Shown here: positions 6,871 through 37,873 of the stretch, one piece after another | Position numbering within the stretch: the first letter of the stretch is position 1 | Layout: each line of letters begins with the position of its first letter | DNA from: Bacillus sp. ISL-37 | Lineage (GTDB): Bacteria > Bacillota > Bacilli > Bacillales > Cytobacillaceae | DNA: 37,873 bases | Assembly: GCF_018613315.1 (NCBI RefSeq) | Contig: NZ_JAGGQL010000048.1 | Coordinates: forward strand, 1 to 37,873 | Direction: 5' to 3' | Translations under genes and position numbers: made by a program | Notes under the pieces: model-generated | Seen by the model: only the letters and a program-made list of their open reading frames with translations | What the model was told of the DNA's origin: nothing | Database searches by the model: none

Positions 6871-7141
6871 AGCTTTTCGCTGATTTTCGCCGAAGCTGTT
6901 CGAAGTGATCCAGGTTCGCACAGCTTTACCCTTATTTCCTTCAAAGCTGTCAGAAGTAGCCCCAAGTTCAGACAGCTTTTCGCTGATTTCCTTCAAAGCT
7001 GTCAGAAGTAGCCCTAAGTTCAGACAGGTTTCCGCTGATTTACCCCAAAGCTGTCAGAAGTAGCTTCAAGTTTCCGCTGATTTCCTTAAAAGCTGTCAGA
7101 AGTAGCATCAGTTTCAGACAGCTTTACCCTGATACCAGAAA
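6871..7141. repeat. Tandem repeat array A, about 52-bp period, each unit with an inverted-repeat core
   Basis: AAGCTGT recurs at 6893, 6944, 6996, 7048 and 7090, giving steps of 51, 52, 52 and 42 bp. Each full unit carries AGCTGTCAGAA, 11 nt, then TTCAGACAGCT: an imperfect palindrome with 11-nt arms. It is followed by a CGCTGATTTCC-like spacer. The short fourth unit lacks the ten bases that form the right arm. A period of 52 is not a multiple of three, so a coding repeat is unlikely. The array fills most of the 540-nt gap between exoA and ccpN. A second array at the right end of the window has the same period and arm spacing with different bases. Confidence 0.85.
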
Positions 7142-7243
7142 CAGTATGACATATTTAAGTTTATAAAATAAAAAAATATCCCAATCAAACGCCAGTAATG
7201 CTGTTGTTTTAATATATTCAAAGAATTATAAAAACCTTTTCTT

Positions 7244-7272
7244 TTGATTTTTAGCTTAATGTTATATACTAT
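7244..7272 (+). promoter_or_regulatory. Possible sigma-A promoter of the ccpN-yqfL-ppdK operon
   Basis: TTGATT at 7244-7249 is followed by overlapping -10 candidates: TACTAT (7267-7272) at 17-nt spacing, or TATACT (7265-7270) at 15 nt. The region is AT-rich and lies about 75 nt before the ccpN start. Which -10 is used cannot be told by eye. Confidence 0.4.
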
Positions 7273-7344
7273 AAATTAATAAGGATAACACATTAAAATA
7301 ATCCTTGATAATGTTACATATTAATTATTGGGGGTACGTTGGTG

Positions 7345-7992
7345 GTGAGTTCTATTAAACTAACAAAACGGCAGGAAGAAATCGTTCAAATTGTCAAGGA
7401 GGATGGCCCGATAACTGGTGAACAGATTGCCGAAAAGCTGAAGTTGACACGGGCAACTCTCCGTCCCGACTTGGCGATTCTGACGATGGCTGGCAGCCTT
7501 GAGGCCAGGCCCAGAGTCGGCTATTTTTTCAATAAGGATAGAGAGAGACTGTTTGAACCGACAGAATTTCTTAATCTTAAAGTCAATGACTATAAAGGCC
7601 ATCCGATAGTCGTGCAAAAATCATCTTCTGTTTATGATGCGATTGTCCAGATGTTCCTGGAAGACGTAGGGACGCTTTATGCTGTTGATTCTGAAAGTTG
7701 CCTGGCTGGAGTCATTTCAAGGAAAGACCTGCTAAGGGCTGCTATCGGAAACAAGAATCTGGAGGATCTTCCTGTAAGCGTCATCATGACGAGGATGCCA
7801 AATATTATAACGGTGAACCCTGAAGAAACATTGGTCCAGGCTGCAAAAAAGCTTGTAACAAACAGAATAGATTCTCTCCCTGTCGTCCGTGAACTCAAGC
7901 ATAAACCCGATTCATATGAAGTCATCGGACGAATAACGAAAACAACCATTACAAAGGTTTATCTAGAAATCGCAGAGCAAAAATCTGTCTAG
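7345..7992 (+). CDS. ccpN: CcpN-type transcriptional repressor of gluconeogenic genes
   Basis: About 215 aa. An N-terminal helix-turn-helix (KLTKRQEEIVQIVKEDGPIT, then EKLKLTRATLRPDLAILTM) is followed by two CBS domains (about 75-130 and 140-205; SRKDLLRAAIG and VIMTRMPNIITVNPEETL mark them). This is the layout and sequence style of B. subtilis CcpN, which represses gapB and pckA during glycolytic growth and senses adenine nucleotides through its CBS pair. In-frame TTG 7339, GTG 7342 and GTG 7345 all follow GGGGGT at 7330-7335; similarity to the known N-terminus and spacing favour 7345. It is followed after 14 nt by yqfL and then ppdK, forming one operon on pyruvate/PEP balance. Confidence 0.9.
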   Translation: MSSIKLTKRQEEIVQIVKEDGPITGEQIAEKLKLTRATLRPDLAILTMAGSLEARPRVGYFFNKDRERLFEPTEFLNLKVNDYKGHPIVVQKSSSVYDAIVQMFLEDVGTLYAVDSESCLAGVISRKDLLRAAIGNKNLEDLPVSVIMTRMPNIITVNPEETLVQAAKKLVTNRIDSLPVVRELKHKPDSYEVIGRITKTTITKVYLEIAEQKSV

Positions 7993-8006
7993 GAAGTGAG
8001 CGCATT

Positions 8007-8825
8007 TTGGATATGAAGGAAGTTGTGTACGTGGTATCCGATTCAGTCGGGGAAACGGCAGAATTTGTAGTTAAGGCTGTGGCAACCCAGTTTAACGGCG
8101 GCCAGGTTGATATCAGAAGAAATTCATATGTTGAGGACGAGGAAGACATTGAAGATGTCATCTTGGTTGCGAAGCAAGGGCGTTCGATTATTGCTTATAC
8201 CATCGTTGTTCCAGCACTCAAGGCTTATCTTGATAAAAGGGCTCATGAGGAAGGGATTTATGCGGTAGATTTACTGAATCCGCTGATGAATGCCTTTGAA
8301 AAGAAGTTCAATAAGGAGCCAAACCACCGACCGGGAATGATGCGAAAGCTAGATGATGAATACTTTCGTAAGATTGAAGCGATTGAATTTGCCGTCAAAT
8401 ATGACGATGGCAGAGACCCGCGAGGCATTTTAAGAGCGGATATCGTACTGGTAGGCGTTTCACGGACTTCAAAAACACCATTATCGATGTACCTTGCACA
8501 CAAGCGTTACAAGGTAGCCAATGTACCAATCGTTCCTGAGGTAAAACCGCCAGATGAATTGTTCCAGATACCGAGAAGCAAATGTGTCGGACTGATCATC
8601 TCGCCAGATAAGCTTAACGAAATCAGGACTGAAAGGCTAAAAGCGTTAGGACTTGGTGCCAGGGCAAATTATGCAAGCTATGAACGAATCCTGGAAGAAC
8701 TGGATTATGCAGAGAAAATCATGAAACGTGTTGGCTGCCCTGTTATCAATGTTTCCAATAAGGCGATCGAAGAAACGGCAGGATTGATACTCGATATTTT
8801 AAAAAGTGAGAGGAGTTTTGGCTGA
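8007..8825 (+). CDS. yqfL: Pyruvate, phosphate dikinase regulatory protein (kinase/phosphotransferase, DUF299)
   Basis: 272 aa. It opens with VVYVVSDSVGETAEFVVKA, the conserved start of this family, and carries the P-loop GVSRTSKTP at about 150-158 and the FAVKYDDGRDPRGILRADIVL block. The family both inactivates PPDK, by ADP-dependent phosphorylation of a threonine next to the catalytic histidine, and reactivates it by phosphate-dependent dephosphorylation. The target enzyme is the next gene, with stop and start sharing one base (TGATG). The ORF begins at TTG 8007 with GTGAG 6 nt upstream; ATG 8013 is the alternative, two residues shorter. Confidence 0.93.
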   Translation: MDMKEVVYVVSDSVGETAEFVVKAVATQFNGGQVDIRRNSYVEDEEDIEDVILVAKQGRSIIAYTIVVPALKAYLDKRAHEEGIYAVDLLNPLMNAFEKKFNKEPNHRPGMMRKLDDEYFRKIEAIEFAVKYDDGRDPRGILRADIVLVGVSRTSKTPLSMYLAHKRYKVANVPIVPEVKPPDELFQIPRSKCVGLIISPDKLNEIRTERLKALGLGARANYASYERILEELDYAEKIMKRVGCPVINVSNKAIEETAGLILDILKSERSFG

Positions 8826-11497: not shown

Positions 11498-11506
11498 TCT
11501 TGAACT

Positions 11507-11540
11507 GGAGCGTGTTACTAAATCACGCTCCTTTGTTTTA
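11507..11540 (+). terminator. Intrinsic terminator of the ppdK operon
   Basis: GGAGCGTG (11507-11514) and CACGCTCC (11524-11531) form a perfect 8-bp stem with a 9-nt loop, followed by TTTGTTTT. Confidence 0.88.
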
Positions 11541-22078: not shown

Positions 22079-22846
22079 ATGACTAACGACCATAAAGGTA
22101 AACGTGGTTGCGTGAATGTAAATAAGTCTGCGTCCAGGAACGAATGTGTGAACGTTCCAACTCCTGATTTAATACCGGTTGCCAACCTTCCTGTTACTCT
22201 TGCGGACATTACAGTAACTGACCATCTAGTTGCCGATATCCATTTTCCGGATCCAGTACTTGAAATCAAGGATATCAAAAAAAGGGTGAAAATCGTCCAG
22301 TGCAGATTGCTCTTAGGTCCTACTTCAGACCCTGTTACAGGAATCCCACTATTTATTAAAGGATTCATCCGCAAGAATATCCAATATGCTACGCCATGTC
22401 CTCATGCTAAAAGCGACTGTGTTTCTTCAGAAATGCGCTCTTTGACTGTGGATGTGCCGTTTGAGTGTGTAACGATTATCACTGATTTCCTGACTGATCC
22501 AGTACTTCCAGTATCCAATACTCGTGAAGAATTTGACTTCTTCAGAGCACAGAGTCTGGGCCATGGGTACCCGGAAAAAGATCAGATGCTATCCAGCGAC
22601 CTATCACAATTCCATCAGGTAAGCACACAGTTCTACAATCAAATCCCATTCTGCGAACTTGTATCCAGCAGCATTGTTCAATGGGATGAAGCAACAGATC
22701 GTTATCCTTTACCTAACAATGGACCATTCGAAGAAGGAACATTCCACAATATGGTTGAAAAAACTTTCTTGCAATTCCGTGTAAGAGTTTACCAGAACCA
22801 GCAAGTTGCCATTAATGGTAATGGCGACGACAATGGCAATGGCTAA
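22079..22846 (+). CDS. SPOCS-like/CsxC-like domain protein, probable spore surface protein (paralogue 1)
   Basis: 255 aa. After a basic, Cys-containing N-terminus (to about 35) comes the domain shared by the four paralogues here: LADITVTDHLVADIHFPDPVLEIKDIKKRVKIVQCRLL, then LFIKGFIRKNIQYA and SLTVDVPFECVTIITDF. The G-x-hydrophobic-x-x-N-I-x-Y then hydrophobic-VPF pattern recalls SPOCS (DUF3794) domains of SipL and exosporium proteins such as Clostridium CsxC; this is from memory and unverified. The C-terminus ends in a short Asn/Gly/Asp repeat. It has an AAAGGAGG ribosome site. I infer a structural protein of the spore coat or exosporium made late in the mother cell. Confidence 0.72.
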   Translation: MTNDHKGKRGCVNVNKSASRNECVNVPTPDLIPVANLPVTLADITVTDHLVADIHFPDPVLEIKDIKKRVKIVQCRLLLGPTSDPVTGIPLFIKGFIRKNIQYATPCPHAKSDCVSSEMRSLTVDVPFECVTIITDFLTDPVLPVSNTREEFDFFRAQSLGHGYPEKDQMLSSDLSQFHQVSTQFYNQIPFCELVSSSIVQWDEATDRYPLPNNGPFEEGTFHNMVEKTFLQFRVRVYQNQQVAINGNGDDNGNG

Positions 22847-22860
22847 CCTCATAATCTATA

Positions 22861-22903
22861 GCAAATGGCGATGGCAGCTGTCATCGCCATTTGTTGTTTT
22901 ATA
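22861..22903 (+). terminator. Intrinsic terminator of paralogue 1
   Basis: CAAATGGCGATG (22862-22873) and CATCGCCATTTG (22882-22893) form a perfect 12-bp stem, followed by TTGTTTTATATTT. Confidence 0.92.
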
Positions 22904-23073
22904 TTTCTATATATATATATTCGAGTCAAGGTTCCATCGATATAAGAATAGAAGCAAAAAAAGTGTTCAAAAAATTTTTATGCTGATGGTCGGCCAGTAC
23001 AACACATGTTAAATCAAGGGTTATATTGGGTACTTGCCTTGGATTCTGTTTATACATAAGGGCATACGCCTAG

Positions 23074-23100
23074 ACCCAAAAAATCATGGCGCATAGGATA
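23074..23100 (+). promoter_or_regulatory. Sigma-K consensus promoter of the second SPOCS-like gene
   Basis: AC at 23074-23075, a 16-nt spacer and CATAGGATA at 23092-23100 match the sigma-K consensus (AC-N16-CATANNNTA) exactly. It lies about 40 nt before the start at 23141. Sigma-K acts in the mother cell late in sporulation and drives coat genes, so this supports a spore surface role for the cluster. Confidence 0.7.
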
Positions 23101-23140
23101 AAACATCTTCACTCTAAGGAGTTATAAGGAGGAGCCATGT

Positions 23141-23920
23141 ATGTTTGAATTAGATAAAAATAAAAAGCCAGATTTTGAGTGTAAGCCTTCAACTGATCAT
23201 TTTGAGTGCTCACCTCAACACCATCATCCACATGTAAGTCTTGGAAAGGTGGTTACCAAAGTTCCTGTCGTTCTTGCTGAATTGACCTTGCATGTGAATC
23301 TGGATACGATGATTAATTTTCCAGAACCGGTGCTTGAGATCAAGGATATAAAAAAGAGAATAAAGCTGACCCAATGCAGACTGCTATTGCCGACAAATAA
23401 ATTATTTATCAAAGGGTTTGTTAGAAAGAACATCCAATATGCAAGTCCGAGCCAGGAGATTGAAGCTTCCTCATCATCATCAGTAGCTTCTGACCTGCAC
23501 TCATATACAGTCGATATTCCGTTCCAGGTAATAACAGAGGTAAAGAACTTCCTTTCGAAGCCGGTATTGCCTCAAGTAAACAACCGGAAGGAATTTGATT
23601 TCTTTGTCTCAAAACCTTTGTCAACGGGATTCCCGGAAAAAGATGAATTGCTTACTAGCGACTTGAGCCAATTCCACCAGGAAAGCTCGCAGCATTATAA
23701 TGAATTGCCTTTCTGCGAATTAGTATCCAGCCAAATTATTGAATGGGATGAAGCGATTGACCGTCAGCCGCTTCCTACATCGTCACCGATTGATGAAGGA
23801 TATTTCCAGACAATTGAAGAGAAAATGGTCATTGATTTCACAGTACGGGTACTTCAAAATCAACAAATCCGCGTTTCATCAGCAACTAATGATCCAGATT
23901 GCTATGACGAATCAGAATAA
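23141..23920 (+). CDS. SPOCS-like/CsxC-like domain protein, probable spore surface protein (paralogue 2)
   Basis: 259 aa, closely similar to paralogue 1 along the whole domain: INFPEPVLEIKDIKKRIKL, LFIKGFVRKNIQYA, then EKDELLTSDLSQFHQESS, ELPFCELVSSQIIEWDEAIDR and DFTVRVLQNQQIRV. The N-terminus is a His/Pro-rich stretch with two Cys, and there is a run of serines in the middle. An AAGGAGGAGCC ribosome site precedes ATG 23141. A perfect sigma-K type promoter lies just upstream. The closeness to paralogue 1 indicates a recent tandem duplication. Its function as a coat/exosporium structural protein is inferred. Confidence 0.75.
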   Translation: MFELDKNKKPDFECKPSTDHFECSPQHHHPHVSLGKVVTKVPVVLAELTLHVNLDTMINFPEPVLEIKDIKKRIKLTQCRLLLPTNKLFIKGFVRKNIQYASPSQEIEASSSSSVASDLHSYTVDIPFQVITEVKNFLSKPVLPQVNNRKEFDFFVSKPLSTGFPEKDELLTSDLSQFHQESSQHYNELPFCELVSSQIIEWDEAIDRQPLPTSSPIDEGYFQTIEEKMVIDFTVRVLQNQQIRVSSATNDPDCYDESE

Positions 23921-23936
23921 ATATTAGATAAATGGC

Positions 23937-23985
23937 GGGGTATTATACTAGGCAACAATAGTATATACCCCTTTATGTTTTTACC
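23937..23985 (+). terminator. Intrinsic terminator of paralogue 2
   Basis: GGGGTATTATACTA (23937-23950) pairs with TAGTATATACCCC (23959-23971) with one bulged base, followed by a T-rich tail. Confidence 0.85.
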
Positions 23986-23997
23986 TCTAAAAAGAAA

Positions 23998-24035
23998 GGA
24001 GGGTAGGGAAAGGTTGCAATAAAAGCAGACCCTCC
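23998..24035 (+). promoter_or_regulatory. Hairpin that sequesters a Shine-Dalgarno-like GGAGGG before paralogue 3
   Basis: GGAGGGT (23998-24004) is perfectly complementary to ACCCTCC (24029-24035). The GGAGGG is the only strong ribosome-site-like sequence before the ATG at 24044, but it is 40 nt away. Folding the stem would bring it to about 8 nt from the ATG, though base-paired. It could be a translational control structure or a coincidence; no T-tract follows, so it is not a terminator. Confidence 0.35.
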
Positions 24036-24043
24036 CATTTAAG

Positions 24044-25147
24044 ATGGAAAACAGAAATAGAACGTTCCATGAAATGAATCTGTTCCAGGGCAATTGGGGA
24101 AAAAATTATGTGGATCCCAGGGGATCACAAAGTGAATCAGAGATGGAAAATGTTTTTGAGGAAATCGATAAAGATCTTGCCGAGAATGTCAATGAAAACA
24201 GATTGCGTCCCAAAGCAAAGAGTTCAGGCATACCATTGATCCTCGCTCCTCCTGTTATTAAAAGCGTTGAAGAAAAGCCTTCTGCATCAAAAAGACGATT
24301 TACAATAGATGAGGAAGCGGAAGAATCAAGTGATTCGATGGGAATAGTTGATGATGTGGGGGAACATTTAAAGGAAGAAATTCAGGGAGGCTTTGATGAA
24401 TCCTCTGATGAAAAAATGTATGAGGAGTCCAGTAGTTTCCTATATGAAGAGGAATCTGCCAATCAGTTATCAGCCATAGACGAGTCAGGTGATGAACCTC
24501 ATTATTATGAAAACCACGAGGAATCAGTTGATTTTCAATATGAATCATCTGAATCATCCTCCGAACCTATGAAATTGGCTACGGCGGCTTACAGTGGAAA
24601 AAATAATAGGATAGAAATGACGAAGGTGAGACTTCCTTTACACCTGGCAGATGTTGACCTCGAAATAGATATCTTTGATACATTCAGCCTCTCAAGGCAG
24701 ATTTCATCTGTTTCTAATGTAGAGTGCTCGCTTCAATCGATTGATGCTGAGGTTTTAGTCCCGTCAGCCAATTTATTCACAAAAGGAATACTTCTGATAA
24801 ACATTGATTATGTAAGTGCTGACAATGCAGGGACGATGCATTCACTTAAGATTCACATCCCATGGAAAAAAATCATTCCGGTAAAATGGATTCATAGGCC
24901 CGAACTATCTTCCAAAGACAGCAAGGAATACTTATTCACTTCAAGTCTTGGTATGGAAGAAGGGTATACACGCGAATATAGTGAGAGTTTAGTAGAAAAA
25001 GTGAATTACAGTCTATCGAGTTTGCATTGCGTATGGAATGAACAATTCATTCAAAACGACCGAGTGATGATTCAGGGTACGGCAAGGATGAAAATTGATC
25101 TATATCAAAAACAATGCCTGGATTTACAAAAGCTGCTTTCACTATAA
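24044..25147 (+). CDS. SPOCS-like domain protein with long acidic, serine-rich N-terminus (paralogue 3)
   Basis: 367 aa. Residues 1-185 are low-complexity and rich in Glu, Ser and Asp, with many ESS/DES clusters and no predicted fold. Residues of about 190-367 form the same domain as the neighbours in a more diverged form: TKVRLPLHLADVDLEIDIFD, LFTKGILLINIDYV, then MHSLKIHIPWKKIIPV. The acidic part could be a disordered, cation-binding or spacer region. No normal ribosome site precedes ATG 24044; the frame is closed by a stop at 24020 and there is no other start before it. It likely belongs to the spore surface cluster. Confidence 0.68.
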   Translation: MENRNRTFHEMNLFQGNWGKNYVDPRGSQSESEMENVFEEIDKDLAENVNENRLRPKAKSSGIPLILAPPVIKSVEEKPSASKRRFTIDEEAEESSDSMGIVDDVGEHLKEEIQGGFDESSDEKMYEESSSFLYEEESANQLSAIDESGDEPHYYENHEESVDFQYESSESSSEPMKLATAAYSGKNNRIEMTKVRLPLHLADVDLEIDIFDTFSLSRQISSVSNVECSLQSIDAEVLVPSANLFTKGILLINIDYVSADNAGTMHSLKIHIPWKKIIPVKWIHRPELSSKDSKEYLFTSSLGMEEGYTREYSESLVEKVNYSLSSLHCVWNEQFIQNDRVMIQGTARMKIDLYQKQCLDLQKLLSL

Positions 25148-25155
25148 GGAAAACA

Positions 25156-25177
25156 GGGTGCCTCATGTGAGACACCC
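25156..25177. terminator. Bidirectional terminator between convergent paralogues 3 and 4
   Basis: GGGTG-C-CTC (25156-25164) pairs with GAG-A-CACCC (25169-25177) with one mismatch and a tight ATGT loop. The T content after the stem is better on the minus strand (TGTTTTCC), which would end paralogue 4. Confidence 0.6.
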
Positions 25178-25187
25178 TTGATGCATG

Positions 25188-26003
25188 TTAACCCTCATGG
25201 CGTTTCATTAATTCTTTCATCCTGTCCTTCATGCTTTTTGGCTGAGGAGCCATCTTATAACCTGTGTCACAGGAAGAAGATGAGGATTCTTCTTCTTTGC
25301 CACCATAGCAATAGCCTAAGTTAACCTGCTGCTTTTGTAGCAATTTGAAGAATAAGCCAACTTCCATCTTTTCTGTGATTCGGCTAAATCGGCCCCAGTT
25401 GTCAAAATCCTTGTAAAGGTCAAGGTCATTGACAAAAGATGCAAGCAATTTGCATTCAACTGGTTCATTGTAGTATTCGTACGTATAGGCTCCTGAAGTA
25501 CAATTATCAGCACCGTGTCCTTTCTTATCAATGAACCTTCTTTCATACACAGTGTTCTTTTGGCTCAGGTGTTCATAGTCAGGGTAATTGTAGACTTTAA
25601 CAGCTTGACTGCAAGTAAAAGGCACATCGACACTGTAGTCCTTAAGAACTCCGCTGCATTGCTCTACATATTGGATATTCTTGTGGACAATACCGGTGAT
25701 ATACAGTTTAACCTTGTTATAGTCCATTGCTGAACGGATCGCCTTACATTGGGTCAGGGATACATTCCTGCGCATGTGTTTGATCTCACGTGCTGCAGTT
25801 GGAAGTTCGATGTCGCTTTCAACTTCTACCTGTAGCTCCACTTCTGCTAATGCAACATCAATGTCAGCGACTGGGTACTGAAGGTAGTTGCCATAAGGAT
25901 AGTAAGAATCATTATCGCAATCAACCCGAAGCGTTTTTGCTTCATCACATGAAAGCTGTGGCGGGCAGCCATGGTTAGAATTGCAACCTGTATTTCTCTT
26001 CAT
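25188..26003 (-). CDS. SPOCS-like/CsxC-like domain protein, probable spore surface protein (paralogue 4)
   Basis: 271 aa, on the opposite strand to paralogues 1-3. The shared domain is clear: DIDVALAEVELQVEVESDIELP, REIKHMRRNVSLTQCKAI, LYITGIVHKNIQYVEQC, YSVDVPFTCSQAV. It is rich in Cys (N-terminal NTGCNSNHGC and CDEAK) and Tyr, has a run of five serines near the end and a basic tail (KSMKDRMKELMKRHEG). Cys and Tyr richness is typical of cross-linked coat or exosporium proteins. AAAGGAGTG 8 nt before ATG 26003 is preferred over GTG 26012, which overlaps the ribosome site. I infer a spore surface role. Confidence 0.7.
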   Translation of the reverse strand: MKRNTGCNSNHGCPPQLSCDEAKTLRVDCDNDSYYPYGNYLQYPVADIDVALAEVELQVEVESDIELPTAAREIKHMRRNVSLTQCKAIRSAMDYNKVKLYITGIVHKNIQYVEQCSGVLKDYSVDVPFTCSQAVKVYNYPDYEHLSQKNTVYERRFIDKKGHGADNCTSGAYTYEYYNEPVECKLLASFVNDLDLYKDFDNWGRFSRITEKMEVGLFFKLLQKQQVNLGYCYGGKEEESSSSSCDTGYKMAPQPKSMKDRMKELMKRHEG

Positions 26004-26189
26004 ATCTTTCACTCCTTTTTTTTATAATCAAAAGCAGTAAGAAACAGTAAAGGACTGCTCCTTTCTTTTGACTTACTATTTTATATGCCAGTACAACGGT
26101 AAATGAATAGACGAATGATAGAGGGCAATCACATATTTTTTTCTTTGAAAGGAAAAGTTGAGAGTTTTAGGGACAAGTGCGGATTATTT

Positions 26190-26377
26190 TACATAGGCTG
26201 TTTTCGTAAAGATTGTTGTTAAAATCCTAAAGCCGATTTTAACGAATATAAGGCCATTTTGCAGTTCGGTATTAAGATTGCACGCTCTTTTCTCATAAGA
26301 AGCGTCAACTTTACGAAGGAATATAGGTAATTCAATCCAATTTTGTATTCAATAGCAACAAAGTTTGAGAAAAGAGC
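26190..26377. repeat. Highly structured intergenic element inside the spore gene cluster
   Basis: The 426-nt gap between paralogue 4 and the CotZ-type gene holds three perfect inverted repeats. GTTAAAATC (26218-26226) pairs with GATTTTAAC (26235-26243), loop 8 nt. TTCGTAAAG (26203-26211) pairs with CTTTACGAA (26309-26317). GCTCTTTTCTCA (26284-26295) pairs with TGAGAAAAGAGC (26366-26377). The second and third cross each other, so they cannot both form in a simple nested fold; alternative structures or a pseudoknot would be needed. It may be a mobile (MITE-like) or RNA element; parts resemble a sequence I recall from other Bacillaceae genomes. No ORF is supported here. Confidence 0.6.
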
Positions 26378-26390
26378 CTTTACATAAAGG

Positions 26391-26411
26391 AACCCCACAT
26401 AGAGCGGGGCT
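26391..26411 (-). terminator. Probable terminator of the CotZ-type gene
   Basis: On the minus strand AGCCCC and GGGGTT (plus-strand 26406-26411 and 26391-26396) pair around a 9-nt loop just after the stop. The T-tract is weak (CCTTTATG), so confidence is limited. Confidence 0.45.
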
Positions 26412-26429
26412 GTTGAGCTATTCGGAGAA

Positions 26430-27158
26430 TTAGCGTCCAGAGCATAATAGCTTCTTAGGGTCCATCTTCTTTGCTTTTACAGGTGGGAAGCAGGTAATCC
26501 CGACAAAATCTTTTAAATCGACTTCAAAGCATGCTCCAGTCCTGACGAATCCCTCAATTCCATGGTGTTTTCCTTCACATCGTTCTGGACAGAGCAACTC
26601 GAGGATCGCACAGCATTTGGAACCTTTCGTAAAATCAACTACACGAAAGAAAGTAGATTTAATGTCATAAAAGCAGCCATTAATTTTAACAACTCCTGTA
26701 CCCACGAAGGTCTCGCAGTCACCTTTGCTGCATCCGCATAATAACTTGAAAGGAATGGTATCGAAGTTTGACTGTTTACATTGATTAAGAAGTTCTTTGA
26801 TTGACCGATCACAGCTTACATCACAGCCGTGTTTTTTGCGGGTAACTTCATGCTGTGCATCATTGATATCCCTTACCTTTTTGCAAACGCAGCTTTGGGA
26901 ATGATTATCATAATGATTTTTTTTGCAGCCACAGTCATGAAAATCGTGATCCCTGTCTTTATGTTCATCTCTGTCCTTGCCATGACCCCAATCTTTATGA
27001 TCGTCCCAATCCTTGTGCTTATCTTTATGCTTCCGTTTCTCCCAATCCTTGTGGTCATCCCATTCCTTATGTTTCTCCATATCGCGATGCTTAGACTTTT
27101 CCTTCTTATGACCGTAATCATCGTCAGGTCGATGGTCATCTTTGTAATAATAATTCAT
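26430..27158 (-). CDS. CotY/CotZ (ExsY)-family spore coat protein with a charged repeat N-terminal extension
   Basis: 242 aa. The C-terminal part (about 88-242) is a CotY/CotZ/ExsY coat domain: SCVCKKVRDINDAQHEV, CDVSCDRSIKELL, FDTIPFKLLCGC, STFFRVVDF, CCAILELLCPE, and many Cys. These proteins self-assemble through disulphides into the outer coat or exosporium. The N-terminal 75 residues are made almost only of Lys, Asp, His, Arg and Trp, with repeats such as KDWDDHKDW and near-copies; this extension is not part of the CotY/CotZ that I know (148-162 aa). It may be a disordered, hydrophilic or metal-binding surface. GGAGAGG precedes the ATG. A CATATCCTG upstream is one base off a sigma-K -10. 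Confidence 0.85.
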   Translation of the reverse strand: MNYYYKDDHRPDDDYGHKKEKSKHRDMEKHKEWDDHKDWEKRKHKDKHKDWDDHKDWGHGKDRDEHKDRDHDFHDCGCKKNHYDNHSQSCVCKKVRDINDAQHEVTRKKHGCDVSCDRSIKELLNQCKQSNFDTIPFKLLCGCSKGDCETFVGTGVVKINGCFYDIKSTFFRVVDFTKGSKCCAILELLCPERCEGKHHGIEGFVRTGACFEVDLKDFVGITCFPPVKAKKMDPKKLLCSGR

Positions 27159-27938: not shown

Positions 27939-27940
27939 GA

Positions 27941-28096: not shown

Positions 28097-28531
28097 ATGA
28101 GCAAAATTGCGATTGGGAAAACAGCGGTCCTGCTTGCATCTTTTACAGAGGAAGAAATGGCTTTCTTTCAGGATACCTTAAAAGAAGTAAGCTATTGCCT
28201 TGGCAAAGTAGGATCGATGAACATGCAAAAAGTTATTTCCGCAGTGGAAACAGCTGCCAAACGCCATGGCCTCATACATCCCAATTTATACCGTGAAACC
28301 CATGCACTATACCATGCGATCATGGAAGGGATGGAGGGGGTCACGAGAGGTCATCTTTCCATTGGTGAAATGAGTCGCACTGTAGGTCTTCGCTTTGCCG
28401 TTGTCCGTGGAACACCTTTTACAGATGAAGATGAAGGAGAATGGATTGCTGTCGCTTTTTATGGAACGATTGGCGCTCCTGTAAAAGGGTCTGAACACGA
28501 AACGGTTGGTTTAGGAATCAATCATATATAA
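28097..28531 (+). CDS. hutP: HutP, L-histidine-dependent antiterminator of the hut operon
   Basis: 144 aa (B. subtilis HutP is 148-151). The characteristic body is present: [47 protein letters not shown] and [42 protein letters not shown]. HutP forms a hexamer that binds L-histidine and Mg2+, then binds XAG triplets in the leader and prevents terminator formation before hutH. Matching triplets and a 14-bp terminator lie directly downstream at 28546-28610, as in B. subtilis. It is the first gene of the operon. Confidence 0.95.
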
Positions 28532-28545
28532 AGTTGCATTGCCTA

Positions 28546-28610
28546 TAGTCCACTAGTCAGTAGGAGGCGATGATGGTTTAAGTATGCCATTGTCGTCTCC
28601 TTTTTATTTT
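28546..28610 (+). promoter_or_regulatory. HutP antiterminator/terminator between hutP and hutH
   Basis: GGAGGCGATGATGG (28563-28576) pairs with CCATTGTCGTCTCC (28587-28600) over 14 bp with three G-U pairs, followed by TTTTTATTTT: an intrinsic terminator. Just before and into its 5' arm lie XAG triplets, the form recognised by HutP: TAG at 28546, TAG at 28554, CAG at 28558 and TAG at 28561. HutP bound there with histidine should stop the terminator from forming and allow hutHUIG transcription. Confidence 0.85.
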
Positions 28611-28635
28611 ATCCACAGATTTGGAGGTTACGAGA

Positions 28636-30156
28636 ATGGTTGTTTTAACAGGTGCAACGTTAACTCTGGAGCAAATCAGGCAGGTTTGCTATCTCGACGA
28701 GGTAGTCGCTATCAGTCCCGATAGTATGAAGAAGGTTACTGAAAGCAGGGAAGCAGTAGAGAAAATCGTTGCCGACAAGCGTACGATTTATGGAATCAAT
28801 ACAGGATTCGGCAAGTTCAGTGATGTCATCATTAATGAACAGGATGTCAATGCATTGCAGCTAAACCTGATCAGGTCACATGCATGCGGCGTAGGAGAAC
28901 CATTTCCAGAGGTCGTTTCACGTGCCATGGTCTTACTCAGACTCAATGCGTTGATTAAAGGGTTTTCCGGGATCAGACCGGTAATCGCTGAGAGGCTTAA
29001 GGAATTGCTTAACCTGCAGATCCACCCGGTTGTCCCGCAGCAAGGCTCACTTGGCGCTTCGGGTGATTTAGCGCCACTATCGCATCTGGCCCTAGTACTG
29101 TTAGGTGAGGGCAAAGTTTTTTATGAGGGAAGGGTTTGTGCAACAGAAGAGGCATATAACAAAGAAGGTCTTGAGCCAATTGTATTACAGGCAAAAGAAG
29201 GCCTTGCCTTGATTAATGGAACCCAGGCAATGACGGCAATGGGTGTTGTCAACTGGATTGAAGCAAATGATCTGGCAAATCAATCAGAATGGATTGCAGC
29301 CCTTACAATGGAAGGTCTAGAAGGTGTCATTGATGCATTCCATCCCGCGATTCATGAAGCGCGCGGCTACCAGCAGCAAATGGATGTAGCGGAGCGCATG
29401 AGAAATTTACTGGCTGGCAGCACCCTGACGACTCGCCAGGGTGAAAAAAGGGTACAGGACGCTTATTCATTAAGATGTATTCCTCAGGTACATGGGGCCT
29501 CATGGCAAGCTCTTGATTATGTAAAAGAAAAGCTAGAGATCGAAATGAATGCAGCTACGGATAATCCGCTCATTTTTGACGGGGGAGAAACCGTCATTTC
29601 GGGAGGTAATTTCCACGGCCAGCCAATTGCAATCGCGATGGATTTTATGAAAATAGCTGTTGCTGAATTTGCCAGTATCTCTGAAAGAAGGATTGAAAGA
29701 CTGGTAAACCCACAATTAAATGATCTGCCCCCATTCTTAAGTCCACAACCTGGACTTCAATCTGGTGCGATGATCATGCAATACAGTGCTGCGTCACTAG
29801 TTTCTGAAAATAAGACTCTCGCTCATCCTGCAAGTGTGGATTCCATCCCATCCTCTGCCAATCAGGAGGATCATGTGAGCATGGGAACGATTGCTGCCCG
29901 ACATGCACACAGTATCATCCAGAACGTCAGACGTGTTCTGGCAATTGAATGTATATGTGCCCTTCAAGCAGTCCAATATCGTGGTGTAGAAAAAATGGCA
30001 CCTAAAACAAGGAGCTTCTATGAGGACGCAAGAAAAATAGTTCCATCTATTACTGAGGACCGCATTTTCTCTGAAGATATCGAAAGACTTGCAGAATGGC
30101 TAAAAAAAAATAGACGCCAGTGGACAGCTATAAAAAATCAGGAGAGCCTGGTTTAA
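28636..30156 (+). CDS. hutH: Histidine ammonia-lyase
   Basis: 506 aa. The MIO prosthetic group triad Ala-Ser-Gly lies at 141-143 in [17 protein letters not shown]. Other family blocks are [34 protein letters not shown] and a [15 protein letters not shown] stretch. It converts L-histidine to urocanate and ammonia, the first step of histidine degradation. GGAGGT at 28623-28628 supports ATG 28636 over the TTG at 28621. It is the first gene after the HutP-controlled terminator and 29 nt before hutU. Confidence 0.97.
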
Positions 30157-30185
30157 AAACTTAAAAATTGAGGAGTGTGGAAACA

Positions 30186-31847
30186 ATGGCAATCGAAGCA
30201 AAGCGAAATATTAAAGCAAAAAAGGGTCTTGAACTGGAATGTAAAGGCTGGGAGCAAGAAGCTGCGTTAAGAATGCTCTATAACAATCTTGATCCAGAGG
30301 TCGCTGAAAAGCCGGAGGATCTAGTTGTATACGGTGGAATTGGCAAAGCAGCACGGAACTGGGAGGCATTCGACGCAATTGTTGATACGCTGCGCAGGCT
30401 GGAAAATGATGAAACAATGCTCGTCCAGTCAGGCAAACCTGTGGCTGTATTCAAAACGCACAAGGCTGCACCAAGAGTGTTAATATCGAACTCCGTATTA
30501 GTTCCTAAATGGGCGAATTGGGACCATTTTCACGAACTCGATAAAAAAGGCTTGATGATGTACGGGCAAATGACTGCGGGGAGCTGGATTTACATTGGTT
30601 CTCAGGGAATCCTGCAGGGGACATATGAAACATTTGCCGAGGTTGCGAGACAGCACTTTGGAGGCACATTGAAAAATACTATTACGTTGACAGCTGGATT
30701 GGGAGGCATGGGTGGAGCGCAACCTCTCGCGGTCACGATGAACGATGGGGTGTGTATAGCAGTTGAGATCGATCCAGAACGGATCAAAAAGCGAATTGAT
30801 ACCCGATATTGCGACCGGATGACACATTCAATCGATGAAGCCATTGAGTGGGCAAAGGAAGCCAGGCATAAAGGAGAAGCCCTATCAATCGGTCTGGTTG
30901 GAAATGCAGCCGAAGTCCATCTTGAATTATTGTCCAGGAATTTTAAAGTTGATATTGTTACGGACCAGACATCTGCTCATGATCCGTTGAATGGATATAT
31001 TCCCGTTGGTCTTACTTTGGAAGAAGCAGCTAAACTTCGTGTGGAAAATCCTGAAGAGTATGTAAAGCAATCATCTTTCTCAATGGCTAAGCACGTCGCT
31101 TCCATGCTTGAATTCCAGCGGAGAGGCTCAATCACATTTGATTACGGCAATAACATTCGTCAGGTTGCCAAGGATCATGGGGAGGAGCATGCTTTCGATT
31201 TCCCTGGTTTTGTTCCTGCTTATATCAGGCCCCTGTTCTGTGAAGGAAAAGGACCATTCCGCTGGGCAGCTTTATCAGGAGACCCGGCTGATATCCACCG
31301 GACAGATGAACTGATCAAGGAACTTTTTCCGGAAAATGAAGCCCTTCAGCGCTGGATTGACATGGCCCAGGAAAAAGTGGAATTCCAGGGTCTGCCTTCA
31401 CGGATTTGCTGGCTAGGCTATGGTGAGCGAGTGAAAATGGGATTGGCAATCAATGAACTCGTTCGAAAAGGTGAATTGAAAGCGCCGATCGTAATTGGAC
31501 GCGACCATTTAGATAGTGGGTCAGTTGCCTCTCCAAATCGCGAAACAGAAGCAATGAAAGACGGCAGCGACGCAGTCGGTGACTGGGCGATCCTCAATGC
31601 ACTAGTCAACGTCGCAGCTGGTGGCTCCTGGATCTCTGTCCATCATGGCGGCGGAGTTGGCATGGGATATTCCCTTCACGCAGGGATGGTCGTAGTGGCA
31701 GATGGCACAGACCTTGCTGAAGAAAGACTTAGAAGAGTACTGACTACAGACCCAGGCATGGGAGTAGCCCGCCACGCAGATGCAGGCTATGATAAAGCCA
31801 TTGAAACAGCGAAAGAAAAAGGCGTCGACATCCCGATGCTCCCTTAA
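30186..31847 (+). CDS. hutU: Urocanate hydratase
   Basis: 553 aa, as in B. subtilis (552). Family features include [14 protein letters not shown] near the start, [20 protein letters not shown], an NAD-binding [20 protein letters not shown] stretch, [20 protein letters not shown] with the conserved active-site Cys, and [15 protein letters not shown]. It hydrates urocanate to 4-imidazolone-5-propionate using NAD+ as electrophile. AGGAG at 30171-30175 supports ATG 30186 rather than TTG 30168. A hairpin with a short T-tract lies in the 102-nt gap before hutI. Confidence 0.97.
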
Positions 31848-31858
31848 AATGTAAAGAG

Positions 31859-31898
31859 ACGGTGTTTGGACTGATAGAGACCAAACATGGCCCGTTTT
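31859..31898 (+). terminator. Terminator-like hairpin within the hut operon
   Basis: TGTTTGG (31863-31869) pairs with CCAAACA (31881-31887), and ACGG (31859-31862) with CCGT (31892-31895), giving a stem with one side bulge, followed by TTTT. It lies between hutU and hutI. It may cause partial termination or mRNA processing that lowers hutIG expression; the role is inferred. Confidence 0.45.
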
Positions 31899-31910
31899 GC
31901 AACAATTTAA

Positions 31911-34140
<2,230 letters not shown>

Positions 34141-34155
34141 CACTCAATTTTAAAT

Positions 34156-34195
34156 GCCTGCAGACATTCTTGTCTGCAGGCTGAACTTTTTTAGG
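34156..34195 (+). terminator. Intrinsic terminator of the hut operon
   Basis: GCCTGCAGACA (34156-34166) and TGTCTGCAGGC (34171-34181) form a perfect 11-bp stem with a TTCT loop, followed by TGAACTTTTTT. Confidence 0.95.
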
Positions 34196-34211
34196 TGTAA
34201 ACTCTAGAATA

Positions 34212-34643
34212 TTATCCTATATCTAGCTTCGCTACCAGGGTAACCAGAATTTGAAGGAGCGCCTGGATATTCACAGCGACATCAGTATCTGTTGTTTTGA
34301 CTTCTACATGTTTTGAACCTTCAATAATTGTTTTTTGCGTATTTCGCTGCTTCGTTTTGATTACTTGTTTGATTTCGTTGACAACGGCATTGCCTTTATT
34401 AGTATCCCCAATCGCAATGCTGATGACTGCAGCAATTGCGGCCTGAAGACCAAGTTGCAGGGAGATAGCCGCCTGAGTATCAGTTGTATGAACATCGATG
34501 CATTCTGAATCCTTGATGATAATCCATTCGAAAGACTGTTGCTTTGTGACCAGCTTTTGATCAGCTTCCTGTGTCACATCAGCCTCATTTCCTTTTCCAG
34601 TATCACAATGATCCAACGCTCTCCACTTTTTTTCTTTGCTCAT
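34212..34643 (-). CDS. CotX-family spore coat protein (copy 2)
   Basis: 143 aa from ATG 34643 (AGAGGTG about 6 nt upstream); the 29 extra residues of the longer ORF have no ribosome site and overlap the next gene. The protein carries the CotX-type repeat twice: VHTTDTQAAISLQLGLQAAI and then VKTTDTDVAVNIQALLQILV, each preceded by an I-x-x-S short strand. Hydrophobic helices in these repeats are typical of insoluble-fraction coat proteins (CotV/CotX). It lies 28 nt after its paralogue, so they are co-transcribed. It is convergent with hutG. Confidence 0.85.
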   Translation of the reverse strand: MSKEKKWRALDHCDTGKGNEADVTQEADQKLVTKQQSFEWIIIKDSECIDVHTTDTQAAISLQLGLQAAIAAVISIAIGDTNKGNAVVNEIKQVIKTKQRNTQKTIIEGSKHVEVKTTDTDVAVNIQALLQILVTLVAKLDIG

Positions 34644-34671
34644 CCTTTTCACCTCTTTCAAGATTAATAGA

Positions 34672-35106
34672 TTACAGAATGTCCAATTCAGCAACAAGGG
34701 CAACCAAAACCTGCAGTAATGCCTGAACATTTACTGCTATATCTGTATCAGTTGTAGTGACATTGACATCTTTGGAATTATTGATGATGATTTTTTGTGT
34801 GTTAGATTGTTCAGTTCCCATTTCCTGAATTAATTGTTGGGAGACGTATTGGCCTTGGTCAGAGTCACCAATTGTGATGCTGATGACTAATGCGATAGCT
34901 AACTGAAGGGCAACCTGCAGTGAGACCGCAGCTTGTGTATCGGTAGTGTGAACCTTGATGTTACAAGAGTCTTTAATCCAAATTAATTCATCAGAATCCT
35001 GCTCCGTATACTCCAACTGGTTTGCCTCCTGCTCCACATCCGCTTTTTTCTTGCAGCTTTTACCAGAATGATGTGGCCTATGGTGATCATGATAATAGTT
35101 TGACAT
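34672..35106 (-). CDS. CotX-family spore coat protein (copy 1)
   Basis: 144 aa from ATG 35106, with AAAGGAGTG just upstream; the ORF extends to 35214 without support. A His-rich start (NYYHDHHRPHHSGKSCKKK) is followed by two CotX repeats (VHTTDTQAAVSLQVALQLAI and VTTTDTDIAVNVQALLQVLV), ending VALVAELDIL. It is closely similar to the downstream copy, so a tandem duplication is clear. CotX proteins in B. subtilis belong to the insoluble outer coat/crust made under sigma-K and GerE. CATACTAGA upstream resembles a sigma-K -10 with one mismatch. Confidence 0.87.
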   Translation of the reverse strand: MSNYYHDHHRPHHSGKSCKKKADVEQEANQLEYTEQDSDELIWIKDSCNIKVHTTDTQAAVSLQVALQLAIALVISITIGDSDQGQYVSQQLIQEMGTEQSNTQKIIINNSKDVNVTTTDTDIAVNVQALLQVLVALVAELDIL

Positions 35107-35195
35107 TGCTTTCACTCCTTTTATTCTAGTATGGAATATCTTATTAATAAAACCTCTGGATAGCTTGTGTATATACCCTAAATAGAGTCCCATTT

Positions 35196-35227
35196 TGAAA
35201 AAATAGACACCCATTTATTAGGGTGCC
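35196..35227 (-). terminator. Intrinsic terminator of the small spore-type gene (minus strand)
   Basis: On the minus strand GGCACCC (plus 35221-35227) pairs with GGGTGTC (plus 35206-35212) around an 8-nt loop, then TATTTTTTC follows. Confidence 0.88.
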
Positions 35228-35240
35228 TAGGGAAAATCTA

Positions 35241-35465: not shown

Positions 35466-35498
35466 TATAATCACTCCCTGTAAATTATTTCGTCTTAT

Positions 35499-35527
35499 TA
35501 AGATATGAATGCGAATTAAATATGGAC
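35499..35527 (-). promoter_or_regulatory. Possible sigma-K promoter of the small spore-type gene
   Basis: On the minus strand CATATCTTA (plus 35499-35507) matches CATANNNTA exactly. Sixteen bases upstream the -35 dinucleotide is CC rather than AC. It lies about 35 nt before TTG 35465. Confidence 0.45.
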
Positions 35528-35669
35528 AGGGCGGAAATCTTGACTTGAGAATATTCTTTAATTTAAAGCATGTGTCTGTAGAAATATACTTGTCTAATTT
35601 TCGTTGCTTGAACTATTTTGTTTTTAAAGTTAGAGTTATTTTATACATAATAAAAGAGGGTGTCAGCAT

Positions 35670-37553
35670 TTGAGCAAGAGGTATTTTACCATTGGAATGG
35701 CAGGTCATATTGACCACGGGAAAACGTCGCTGACCAAGGCGTTGACAAACGTGGATACGGATCGCCTGAAAGAAGAAAAAGAGCGGCAAATTTCAATTGA
35801 ACTTGGCTTTGCACCATTATATGGGGATGAGGAACTGCAAATTTCCGTTGTCGATGTCCCGGGTCATGAGCGCTTTATCCGCCAAATGATCGCTGGCGTT
35901 GCAGGAATTGACCTTGTAGTACTAGTGGTTGCTGCGGATGAAGGTGTTATGCCTCAAACAAGGGAACATCTTGATATACTAGGTTTCCTAGGAATAGGTT
36001 CGGGTATTATTGCGATCACAAAGATTGACAGAGTTGAAGAAGAATTCGTTGAACTTGTTAAAGACGATATCTTAGGCGAGCTTGAAGGGACAGTCTTTGA
36101 GAATGCCCCTTTTATGATGGTCGATAGTTTATCTAAAAAAGGAATCAATGAATTAAAAGAAATAATTATAGAAACGCTGAAAGAGCAAGAGATGCGTGAT
36201 GCAAAAGGAGCCTTCCGACTGCCGGTTGATCAGGTATTTACGGTTAAGGGGCAAGGTACCGTTGTCAGAGGTACTGTTTACGAAGGGACGGTCGAAGAGG
36301 GCCAGCTTTTAAAAGTCTTGCCTTCCGGGCTTGAAGTGAGAGCACGTCAGTTGCAGGTGCATCATAAGCCAGCAAAAGCGGCTTTCGCAGGGCAGCGAGC
36401 CGCCATCAATCTATCGGGCGTTTCGAAGGATGATCTTGAACGGGGCGAAGTACTTGTTTCGTCTGAACATTTCATTGTAACGAATACGATTGATGTCGCA
36501 ATCAGAGTTGTCGAGGACCTCGAGCATTTGGTAAAACAAAGGACGCCAATAAAATGCCATATCGGTACCGCCGAAGTAATGGGACGGATTGTCTTTTTTG
36601 ACCGAAATGAACTTAAAGAAGACAATGGAGAAATCCTTTGCCAGCTTCGTCTGGATGAAAAAATCGTCACAAAGCGCGGAGACCGGTTCATCGTCCGTCG
36701 GCCTAGTCCGCAGGAAACGATTGGCGGCGGTTGGGTAATTGACCCGCGTGGAAATAAATATCGATTTGGCCAGCAGACTATTGAAGAGTTGGAGAAAAAG
36801 AAGGCGGGTACACCAATTGAACGAATTAATGCCGCTTTATATGAAGCGAAGAGTTTATCTGTCGAAGAACTGATTAAACGAACTGCTCTTGATGAAGGAT
36901 CGATTTTGACCAATCTGAACGATGACCAGTTTGTCCAGATTTCGAATAAGGAATTTGCGCTTGTCTCAGTTGTCGAACTCATTGAAGAGGATATCAAGGA
37001 CCGGCTGGAAGATTACCATCAGGAAAACCCTATGAGAACAGGGATAAACAAAGCCGAGCTGCTTCAGTCACTGCAAAAATCATTTTCTAAAAATTTGCTT
37101 GAATTCATTATCGATAATGGTATCAACAAGGGTTTATTTCTAAGGAAAGAACAGTATATTTACCTGGCAAGCTTCGTTCCTCATGTCCCGAAAAATTGGG
37201 TGAAGCGGACAGAGAATATGCTTAATGAACTTAAGGCAGATGGCCTAAAAGTTGCTTACCTGAATGATTATATAAAAAATGCCGGTATCCCGGACTCCAT
37301 AGCAGTTGAGTTGAAACGCTTCCTTGAAGACCAGGGTGAAATTGTCCCTTTAGATGATCAATATGCCTGGTACGGCGCTCATTTTGCGGATGCGGTTGAT
37401 AGGCTAAGAAAACATACAGGAGATGAGTTTGAGGTACCCCAGGCTAAGGAAGCAGTGGAGTTATCGCGGAAATACATGATTCCTTTCCTGGAGCGTCTCG
37501 ATTCACTCGGATACACAAGAAGAGTTGAGAACAAGAGGGTTTGGAGGAAATAA
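35670..37553 (+). CDS. selB: Selenocysteine-specific translation elongation factor SelB
   Basis: 627 aa. The EF-Tu-like GTPase domain has GHIDHGKTS (12-20), DTDRLKEEKERQISIELGFAPL, DVPGHERFIRQMIAG and TKID. The typical SelB domains II/III follow (QVFTVKGQGTVVRGTVYEGTV; VRRPSPQETIGGGWVIDP), then a C-terminal region of winged helices that bind the SECIS hairpin, ending GYTRRVENKRVWRK. SelB delivers Sec-tRNA to UGA codons with a SECIS element. It starts at TTG 35670 with AGAGGGTG upstream. selA, selD and selC are not in this window and could lie to the right. Sec use is patchy in Bacillaceae. Confidence 0.95.
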   Translation: MSKRYFTIGMAGHIDHGKTSLTKALTNVDTDRLKEEKERQISIELGFAPLYGDEELQISVVDVPGHERFIRQMIAGVAGIDLVVLVVAADEGVMPQTREHLDILGFLGIGSGIIAITKIDRVEEEFVELVKDDILGELEGTVFENAPFMMVDSLSKKGINELKEIIIETLKEQEMRDAKGAFRLPVDQVFTVKGQGTVVRGTVYEGTVEEGQLLKVLPSGLEVRARQLQVHHKPAKAAFAGQRAAINLSGVSKDDLERGEVLVSSEHFIVTNTIDVAIRVVEDLEHLVKQRTPIKCHIGTAEVMGRIVFFDRNELKEDNGEILCQLRLDEKIVTKRGDRFIVRRPSPQETIGGGWVIDPRGNKYRFGQQTIEELEKKKAGTPIERINAALYEAKSLSVEELIKRTALDEGSILTNLNDDQFVQISNKEFALVSVVELIEEDIKDRLEDYHQENPMRTGINKAELLQSLQKSFSKNLLEFIIDNGINKGLFLRKEQYIYLASFVPHVPKNWVKRTENMLNELKADGLKVAYLNDYIKNAGIPDSIAVELKRFLEDQGEIVPLDDQYAWYGAHFADAVDRLRKHTGDEFEVPQAKEAVELSRKYMIPFLERLDSLGYTRRVENKRVWRK

Positions 37554-37616
37554 TCCTATCAAATGGATTATTGAACGGTGCAGTTCTTGCACACAGTCCT
37601 AAAGATGGGTATAGGC
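37554..37616 (+). other. Short spacer after selB with small hairpins
   Basis: TAATCC and GGATTA just after the stop, and GTGCA (37578-37582) with TGCAC (37588-37592), form small stems without a good T-tract. No convincing terminator is seen before the tandem array. Confidence 0.4.
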
Positions 37617-37873
37617 TTCGGGCAAATTAGAAGAAAACCAACGGGATTATGTCTGAACATGAGTGAACTTCGGACAAATTAAAAGAAAACCAACAGGATT
37701 TTGTCTGAACATGGGTAGCCTTCGGACAAATTAGAAGGAATGCAACGGGATTTTGTCCGAACCCGAGTAGCCTTCGGACAAATTAGAAGCAATGCAACGG
37801 GATTTTGTCTGAACAAGAGTAGCCTTCGGACAAATTAGAAGGAAACAAACGAGATTTTGTCTGAACAAGGGTA
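37617..37873. repeat. Tandem repeat array B, exact 52-bp period, running off the window
   Basis: TTCGGACAAATT or one-base variants begin at 37617, 37669, 37721, 37773 and 37825: five units spaced exactly 52 bp, the last cut by the window end. Each unit holds ATTTTGTCTGAA, 11 nt, then TTCGGACAAATT, an inverted repeat with arms of about 12 nt, and a GAAGGAATGCAACGG-like spacer. Units differ by a few bases. The period is not a multiple of three, so it is not a coding repeat. Array A at 6871-7141 has the same period and the same arm spacing. The full length lies beyond this window. Confidence 0.9.

Follow-up and report, generated by a model that had tools for sequence, protein, structure and literature searches.

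The Locus and Its Two Arrays

The window analyzed here is the whole stretch of 37,873 nucleotides from Bacillus sp. ISL-37 (NZ_JAGGQL010000048.1; contig 43 of the 62 contigs of this 4.74 Mb genome, G000). In it we looked at two tandem arrays, A and B, of a 52-bp repeat whose units carry the dyad GTCNGAA-N11-TTCNGAC. Array A is located between the intrinsic terminator of an exodeoxyribonuclease III-like gene (xth) and the upstream region of a gene for a CcpN-like regulator (ccpN), both names being inferred, and array B is located downstream of selB.

6050..6805, plus strand: xth, exodeoxyribonuclease III-like gene left of array A (open reading frame, ORF; Exo_endo_phos PF03372, E 8.8e-33)
6812..6850, plus strand: intrinsic terminator-like hairpin of xth, between xth and array A, ends approximate (terminator scan)
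6871..7141, minus strand by unit polarity: array A, ~5 units of 52 bp, the last step 42 bp (Tandem Repeats Finder, TRF; exact dyads)
6949..6973, unstranded: dyad in an array A unit (exact match)
7001..7025, unstranded: dyad in an array A unit (exact match)
7095..7119, unstranded: dyad in the last exact unit of array A, preceded by the shortened 42-bp step
7339..7992, plus strand: ccpN, CcpN-like regulator gene right of array A (ORF; HTH_11 PF08279 and CBS PF00571)
35670..37553, plus strand: selB, SelB selenocysteine elongation factor gene left of array B (ORF; Pfam SelB-wing_2, SelB-wing_3 and GTP_EFTU)
37612..37873, plus strand: array B, ~5 units of 52 bp, truncated at the contig end (TRF, exact dyads)
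37651..37675, unstranded: dyad in array B, first of four exact units (exact match)
37703..37727, unstranded: dyad in array B, second of four (exact match)
37755..37779, unstranded: dyad in array B, third of four (exact match)
37807..37831, unstranded: dyad in array B, fourth of four (exact match)

The first-pass annotation, made from the letters of the window, had proposed that the two arrays share a 52-bp period with the dyad at a fixed offset, and both TRF and the exact dyads bear this out. TRF gives period 52 for array A (6871-7133, 5.3 copies, 77% matches) and for array B (37612-37867, 4.9 copies, 85% matches), and in array B every step between exact dyads is 52 bp. The contig end truncates this array. 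In array A the distance between the dyads at 7001 and 7095 is 94 bp, that is 52+42, a loss of about one helical turn with the phase kept. The outer arms of array B do not pair as had been stated: ATTTTGTC and GACAAATT leave one mismatch and the complementarity is imperfect. The terminator-like hairpin of xth begins ~10 nt past the stop codon (-14.0 kcal/mol).

Spread Across Genomes

The dyad occurs 235 times in G000 and the same pattern read backwards once, which places it far above chance and across the whole genome, as the annotation had expected of a genome-wide family. It had added that a lack of further arrays in the genome or its relatives would speak against this; a pattern of two units at 52 bp was found in 88 of the 193 genomes of the family and in 15 of its 25 genera (0-253 matches per genome), with no match to the control in any genome. 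The distribution is patchy within genera as well. Among the matches listed in named genomes are Mesobacillus, Neobacillus, Cytobacillus, Robertmurraya, Litchfieldia, Evansella, Aquibacillus, Texcoconibacillus, Halalkalibacter and others. Three other contigs of G000 (C1, C4, and C12) have 52-bp arrays within their first few hundred bases, as is expected since short-read assembly breaks at repeats, so that draft genomes probably understate both how many arrays there are and how long they are.

When 80 named loci were compared, the best match to one stretch of G000 was a record of M. selenatarsenatis (L289; 95-96% identity), and the window itself is 93% identical to Bacillus sp. ISL-55 over 6.4 kb; by these matches G000 probably belongs to Mesobacillus. 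Viruses, phages and plasmids were considered as a source of the arrays and rejected: viral contigs gave 0 exact two-unit matches, array A had no match in plasmids and array B none in phages. Some arrays lie on records titled Chryseobacterium sp. ISL-80 (L254, L274, L298, and L300), Paenibacillus sp. FSL R5-0490 (L250, L270, and L293) and Sporosarcina globispora (L276), names that look outdated or wrong.

A wider frame, GTC-N19-GAC repeated over three 52-bp steps in a row, is carried by 65 of the 299 genomes searched at order level, which fall into 31 of 117 genera; at class level 7 of 299 genomes have it. Its inner motifs include CTTCAT, CAGTAGAA, ACATAGAA and ATCGA, and the GTCNGAA core itself is also present outside the order, in three genomes of one family (f73). 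Some inner classes read TGTCCGWTAGA, which resembles what we take to be a serine-resolvase half-site, TGTCYGNTA; a literature search for that consensus gave no result, and the likeness is a resemblance only. The frame alone is not perfectly specific, because the reversed control (CAG-N19-CTG at 52-bp steps) matches repeatedly in a few genomes (G273, 7; G353, 11; G263, 11; G314, 8; also G378 of g85). These control matches may represent another 52-bp repeat class.

A Published Class of Repeats

The annotation had offered no named family for these arrays, but the class is already in the literature. Subirana and Messeguer (IJMS 2021; PMC8161180) examined 176 Bacillus genomes and described, in ~30% of the species, 52-nt tandem repeats that keep their length while their sequence varies; they called the function unknown and proposed a nucleoid protein or small RNAs. 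They found no conserved sequence past short species-specific signals, and nothing is said there of a dyad frame, a footprint, a polarity or a tie to replication; B. selenatarsenatis, the species of the best match above, is listed with many families of such repeats (PMC8161180). Of their table of 27 consensus repeats, six of length 50, 51 or 54 were excluded from our frame test, and TGTC-N19-GACA fits 7 of the 21 that were tested (at least 7 of 8 bases). Two published consensus repeats, oceanisediminis 79_52_5 and alkalitelluris 71_52_7, contain the GTCNGAA-N11-TTCNGAC dyad. Because published repeats carry both the dyad and the frame, ours is not a new class.

The other traits agree. The published satellites have a period of 51-53 nt, many families per genome, species-specific sequences and a patchy presence in Bacillaceae; our arrays have a period of 52 with several inner motifs, are dispersed in several families per genome, are non-coding as judged by ORF placement, and are patchy in Firmicutes (Bacilli) by the family, order and class counts given above. 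A dyad frame or a replication polarity for 52-nt repeats is mentioned neither in the available text of their second paper (Genes 2021, PMC8625621) nor in the titles and abstract openings listed in our literature searches. The dyad architecture, the footprint and the replication-linked polarity of the units appear to be new. These repeats have been called enigmatic since their length alone seemed conserved, and a half-site footprint in a 25/52 frame with a polarity that follows replication gives testable predictions for this open puzzle.

Footprint and Period

For the footprint we took 43 arrays that span an exact multiple of 52 bp and counted all 433 of their alignable interior units, whether or not the motif was kept; five units that could not be aligned were dropped. 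Mismatch to the consensus of the unit's own array is 0.010 at GTC/GAC, 0.016 at +4 to +6 and +18 to +20, and 0.017 and 0.007 at the flanking positions -1 and +25. At the free base it rises to 0.057 (+3) and 0.071 (+21); the spacer reaches 0.090 and the loop 0.096. Units were called by GTC/GAC, and the pattern used to locate roughly half of the stretches also holds GAA/TTC, so that the low values at these bases should be read with this in mind; positions -1 and +25 are absent from every search pattern. At position -1 the consensus halves of 93 arrays have A or T, with a frequency of 0.0 for C and G. Judged from the aligned sequences, W-GTC-n-GAA together with its mirror bears the mark of a pair of inverted half-sites that are recognised sequence-specifically. 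The earlier suggestion of one repeat class with a fixed architecture, probably under a protein-binding constraint, is in line with the genome-wide sites and the low mismatch in the core.

The period is equally strict. Exactly 52 bp separate successive units in 1289 of 1377 steps within arrays, although chaining allowed steps of 50-54 bp (merging neighbouring chains gave three further steps). A scan of 2.39 Mb of array-bearing stretches that used no motif found 331 runs at lag 52 and 2-8 runs at each of the lags 48-51 and 53-56. In B-DNA, 52 bp corresponds to five helical turns.

The Two Halves of the Dyad

One of the questions raised by such a dyad is whether its arms pair as a hairpin. The annotation had described diverged or compensating arms and had named a test for arm covariation, and within the GTCNGAA class the result of this test goes against a hairpin. 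We compared the two halves of a unit with halves of other arrays in the same genome (93 arrays, 31 genomes). In the core both half-sites are identical, within units and between arrays. Elsewhere the halves of one unit tend to differ rather than pair: identity within the unit versus between arrays is 0.65 versus 0.69 at the free core base +3, 0.12 versus 0.39 at +8, 0.23 versus 0.36 at -3 and 0.41 versus 0.65 at -1, and only position -5 is level (0.54 versus 0.53). Among arrays with a complementary consensus at +3/+21, 449 units are unchanged, 80 have a one-sided change and five a double change (four of them compensatory), versus 3.7 doubles expected under independence. Because the halves differ outside the core and the doubles are close to independence, the hairpin reading is unsupported within this class, and we ruled it out there; the idea of compensating arms falls with it.

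Between sequence classes the arms do change together, which speaks for the earlier claim. In a genome with several inner motifs (G078), positions +3 to +8, -6 and -4 to -2 agree better within a unit than from one array to another (0.95 versus 0.49 at +6), and the same is found at +6 to +9 in G402, a genome of another family. Such joint change is predicted by a site for a dimer and by a hairpin too. In G078 (L155-L185) and in G084 and G085, the core GAA has become AAA or TAA in both halves of many units, and pairing is not restored. This shift in sister species looks as if a recognition specificity had shifted.

Location Between Genes

Gene calls come from a simple ORF script, with the result that some neighbours are wrong, and ORFs that run through arrays (many arrays have one, and 52 is not a multiple of 3) were set aside as spurious. 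Sixty-seven arrays lie between called ORFs, with three more at stretch ends left unclassed. Their gaps are convergent in 24 cases, tandem in 37 and divergent in 6, compared with 116, 376 and 166 among 658 array-free gaps. The arrays are thus placed between genes, mostly convergent or tandem ones, and seldom before divergent promoters.

At the array A locus we surveyed 21 loci of the genus, with a partial one (G079) omitted. Ten of the 20 genomes have an array of 2-18 units, flanked by the xth terminator on one side and by a conserved element ahead of ccpN on the other; nine have no array, and one (G074) has what by eye is a decayed remnant. The array was probably gained within a clade and retained in place, while its length and sequence altered. 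A terminator-like hairpin stands between gene and array on 14 of 16 gene-facing sides in G000 and G072 (counted from rows), but this point does not generalise, because over all genomes it is found on 31 of 83 array-facing sides versus 247 of 567 ordinary 3' ends.

Polarity and Replication

Since its two halves differ, each unit has a direction. We scored it with an iterative weight matrix whose sign was set by the A/T or purine content of the unit for each genome set, not by the GC skew of the flanks, and we took the GC skew from up to 18 kb of flanks. The counts come from ten genomes, and the arrays were taken from places in search listings rather than drawn at random. Arrays with a margin of 5 or less were dropped (4 of 66 in a first set of seven genomes, 12 of 37 in G078, 2 of 16 in G314, and 0 of 16 in G402). 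Arrays of G005 and G020 were not scored by the matrix, and two from G020 enter the test of the +7/+17 marker below.

Polarity has the sign of the GC skew for 53 of the 62 first-set arrays, 22 of 25 in G078 and 13 of 14 in G314, a genome of another family; with the 11 of 16 in G402 the count is 99 of 117. When loci with homologous flanks are merged, it follows the skew at 74 of 90 loci (p 4e-10). Convergent loci are informative because transcription gives no direction there, and in convergent gaps polarity follows the skew in 37 of 41 arrays and 29 of 33 merged loci (p 1e-5). In the 15 arrays whose tandem neighbours run against the skew, polarity goes with the skew in 12 and with the genes in three; the skew is below 0.02 in five of the 15. 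Array B (margin 16.2 on the plus strand) has the direction of its local skew of +0.122. The direction of the units is tied to replication rather than transcription.

Single bases give the same picture. The strand with A at both -1 and +25 is the G-rich strand in 38 of 41 arrays, and C at both +7 and +17 marks the G-rich leading strand in 34 of 45. Base skew alone does not explain the polarity, because the C-bearing strand is the G-rich one, against the skew. Strand-specific folding of single-stranded DNA was considered as the origin of the polarity and set aside as a weak effect, with a mean strand difference of -0.009 kcal/mol per nt and the plus strand favoured in 65% of the 117 arrays.

A Possible Role for the Arrays

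From the period, dyad, footprint, non-covariation, location and polarity we infer protein binding, cooperativity and a directional job. The explanation towards which we lean, at little better than even confidence, is that these are cooperative, replication-oriented arrays of putative dimer-binding sites, one per five helical turns. Each 52-bp unit would take up one dimer of a sequence-specific DNA-binding protein, which would recognise the inverted W-GTC-n-GAA half-sites. With a 25-bp dyad every 52 bp, successive dimers would lie on the same face of the helix, since 52 bp is five turns of B-DNA, and could bind side by side and cooperatively. The remainder of the unit, with its differing half-site flanks and purine-rich spacer strand, is asymmetric. 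Because this polarity follows the direction of replication, the bound array would probably work in one direction, facing the replication fork or a DNA translocase, in nucleoid organisation or segregation. If a protein does bind, the arrays may be a missing part of chromosome organisation in these bacteria. A wider version, which we think unlikely, is that much of Bacillales has an undescribed chromosome-wide, replication-directed DNA-binding system of tens of arrays per genome. Each array would be a row of helically phased dimer sites in the GTC-N19-GAC frame, with interchangeable inner specificities and oriented along the replichores, and paralogous readers would act with the fork or a translocase.

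Several results weigh against the proposal of dimer-binding arrays. No partner protein was found among the candidates checked (RTP, Y1 transposase, Chi, SRS, KOPS, and a shared neighbour gene), and none of the named systems fitted as partner or reader. The neighbours of the arrays have no gene in common; a scan of 100 of the 227 neighbours gives GNAT as the commonest Pfam family, found in 6 proteins. In one genome (G078, 37 arrays in the fetched stretches) the frame holds, by eye, at least five inner motifs, and for this reason one protein would not read it alone. The two-unit pattern has no match in 105 of 193 family genomes, a figure to be read with the fact that it misses diverged classes. 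The joint change of both halves between classes would be given by a hairpin too, and A/T helical phasing within the unit is weak (10.4 bp is the strongest period tested, at 0.147 of the variance). As for polarity, the agreement in G402 (11 of 16) is not significant, among the 62 first-set arrays polarity matches local gene direction in 48 and GC skew in 53, and replichores defined by dnaA give 42 of 53, with five of the 11 misses within 10% of the assumed terminus. The +7/+17 marker is reversed in G020 (0 of 2), three exceptions (L038, L039, and L043) have good margins, and array A itself (margin 12.1 on the minus strand) opposes its local skew of +0.095; its orthologous arrays have by eye the same direction relative to ccpN.

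Another explanation, which we consider rather doubtful, is a selfish or neutral satellite spread by a replication-coupled process such as lagging-strand single-stranded DNA, hairpin slippage or a single-stranded DNA transposase. Polarity would then come from the mechanism of insertion or survival, the intergenic place from purging, and the core would be a signal for the copying machinery. The patchy presence among family genomes, the variation at the array A locus from none or a remnant to 18 units, and the avoidance of divergent, promoter-bearing gaps would all fit, and a replication-linked polarity is a known mark of IS200/IS605-type transposition of single-stranded DNA. What the satellite account fits less well is the persistence of arrays at one locus through a clade, the absence of +3/+21 compensation together with halves that are anti-symmetric outside the core within the class, and the near equality of the two strands in folding. 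The Y1 transposase family (PF01797), which has a match in 221 of 299 genomes, has none in G000 or in the array-bearing G088 and G063 (20 of the 78 genomes without a match were listed).

The suggestion of Subirana and Messeguer, a transcribed string of hairpins that would serve as a 3' UTR (untranslated region) element, a small RNA or a sponge for RNA, seems improbable to us. In favour, 52-nt repeats of B. coagulans are detected in RNA-seq (Subirana and Messeguer, Genes 2021, PMC8625621). Arrays do lie downstream of genes, polarity at tandem sites of the first set matches the neighbouring genes in 23 of 31, and the halves change together between classes. Against it, polarity follows replication at convergent genes and in most of the opposed tandem cases, and covariation is absent within the class. 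The terminator-like hairpins before arrays in G000 and G072 also speak against it, with the reservation already made on their generality, and nothing in the window reaches the Rfam gathering threshold. Least probable, and in our view very much so, is that the arrays act as polar barriers to replication forks, like RTP/Ter or Tus/Ter, and that every site faces the permissive way. The dyad is imperfect and asymmetric and its direction goes with the replichore, as it would in such a barrier, but the sites are chromosome-wide and not only near the terminus (quartiles of the ori-ter fraction 0.08 to 0.84 in six genomes with dnaA located). Strong RTP matches (PF02334, E<1e-30) are found in 4 of 65 array-bearing genomes versus 50 of 234 others, and in G000 no RTP is above the cut-off, with a single weak match of 22.9 bits.

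Relation to Other Repeat Systems

The arrays share features with several known systems. REP/BIME and REPIN/RAYT elements are extragenic palindromic repeats, present in hundreds per genome with a bias to the 3' ends of genes, and unlike them our arrays have a strict 52-bp tandem period and a replication-linked polarity. A cognate Y1 transposase has 0 matches in G000, and instead of complementary hairpin arms the GTCNGAA class has pairing limited to the core with no covariation; other inner classes have longer symmetric arms. A regular tandem array with a partly palindromic unit also recalls CRISPR, but the spacers here are repeated within an array (mismatch 0.09) rather than unique, and one genome (G078) has 37 arrays in the stretches fetched. 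No Cas genes are among the 25 neighbour families listed out of 199, in a survey that was not aimed at Cas. RTP/Ter, Tus/Ter, Chi and KOPS/SRS are likewise polar sequences oriented by replichore. For RTP/Ter the expected gene is represented in G000 by the sub-cut-off match alone, and the Chi sequence AGCGG is not enriched on the leading strand beyond composition (88 seen versus 86.6 expected). In the first 300 nt of the 117 arrays, GAGAAGGG occurs once and GGGNAGGG three times.

Other Features of the Window

SelB is known from few Bacillus-like species, and array B stands directly after its gene. A run of ORFs at 28097-34140, which resembles a hut cluster for the use of histidine, has HutP-, HutH-, HutU-, HutI- and HutG-like products, as read from the translations. 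Spore-coat-like proteins are encoded in 22079-27158 and 34212-35214, with a DUF7852 domain at 22079-22843 and a Coat_X domain at 34675-35211, and the former region includes a highly charged protein rich in His, Lys and Asp (26430-27158).

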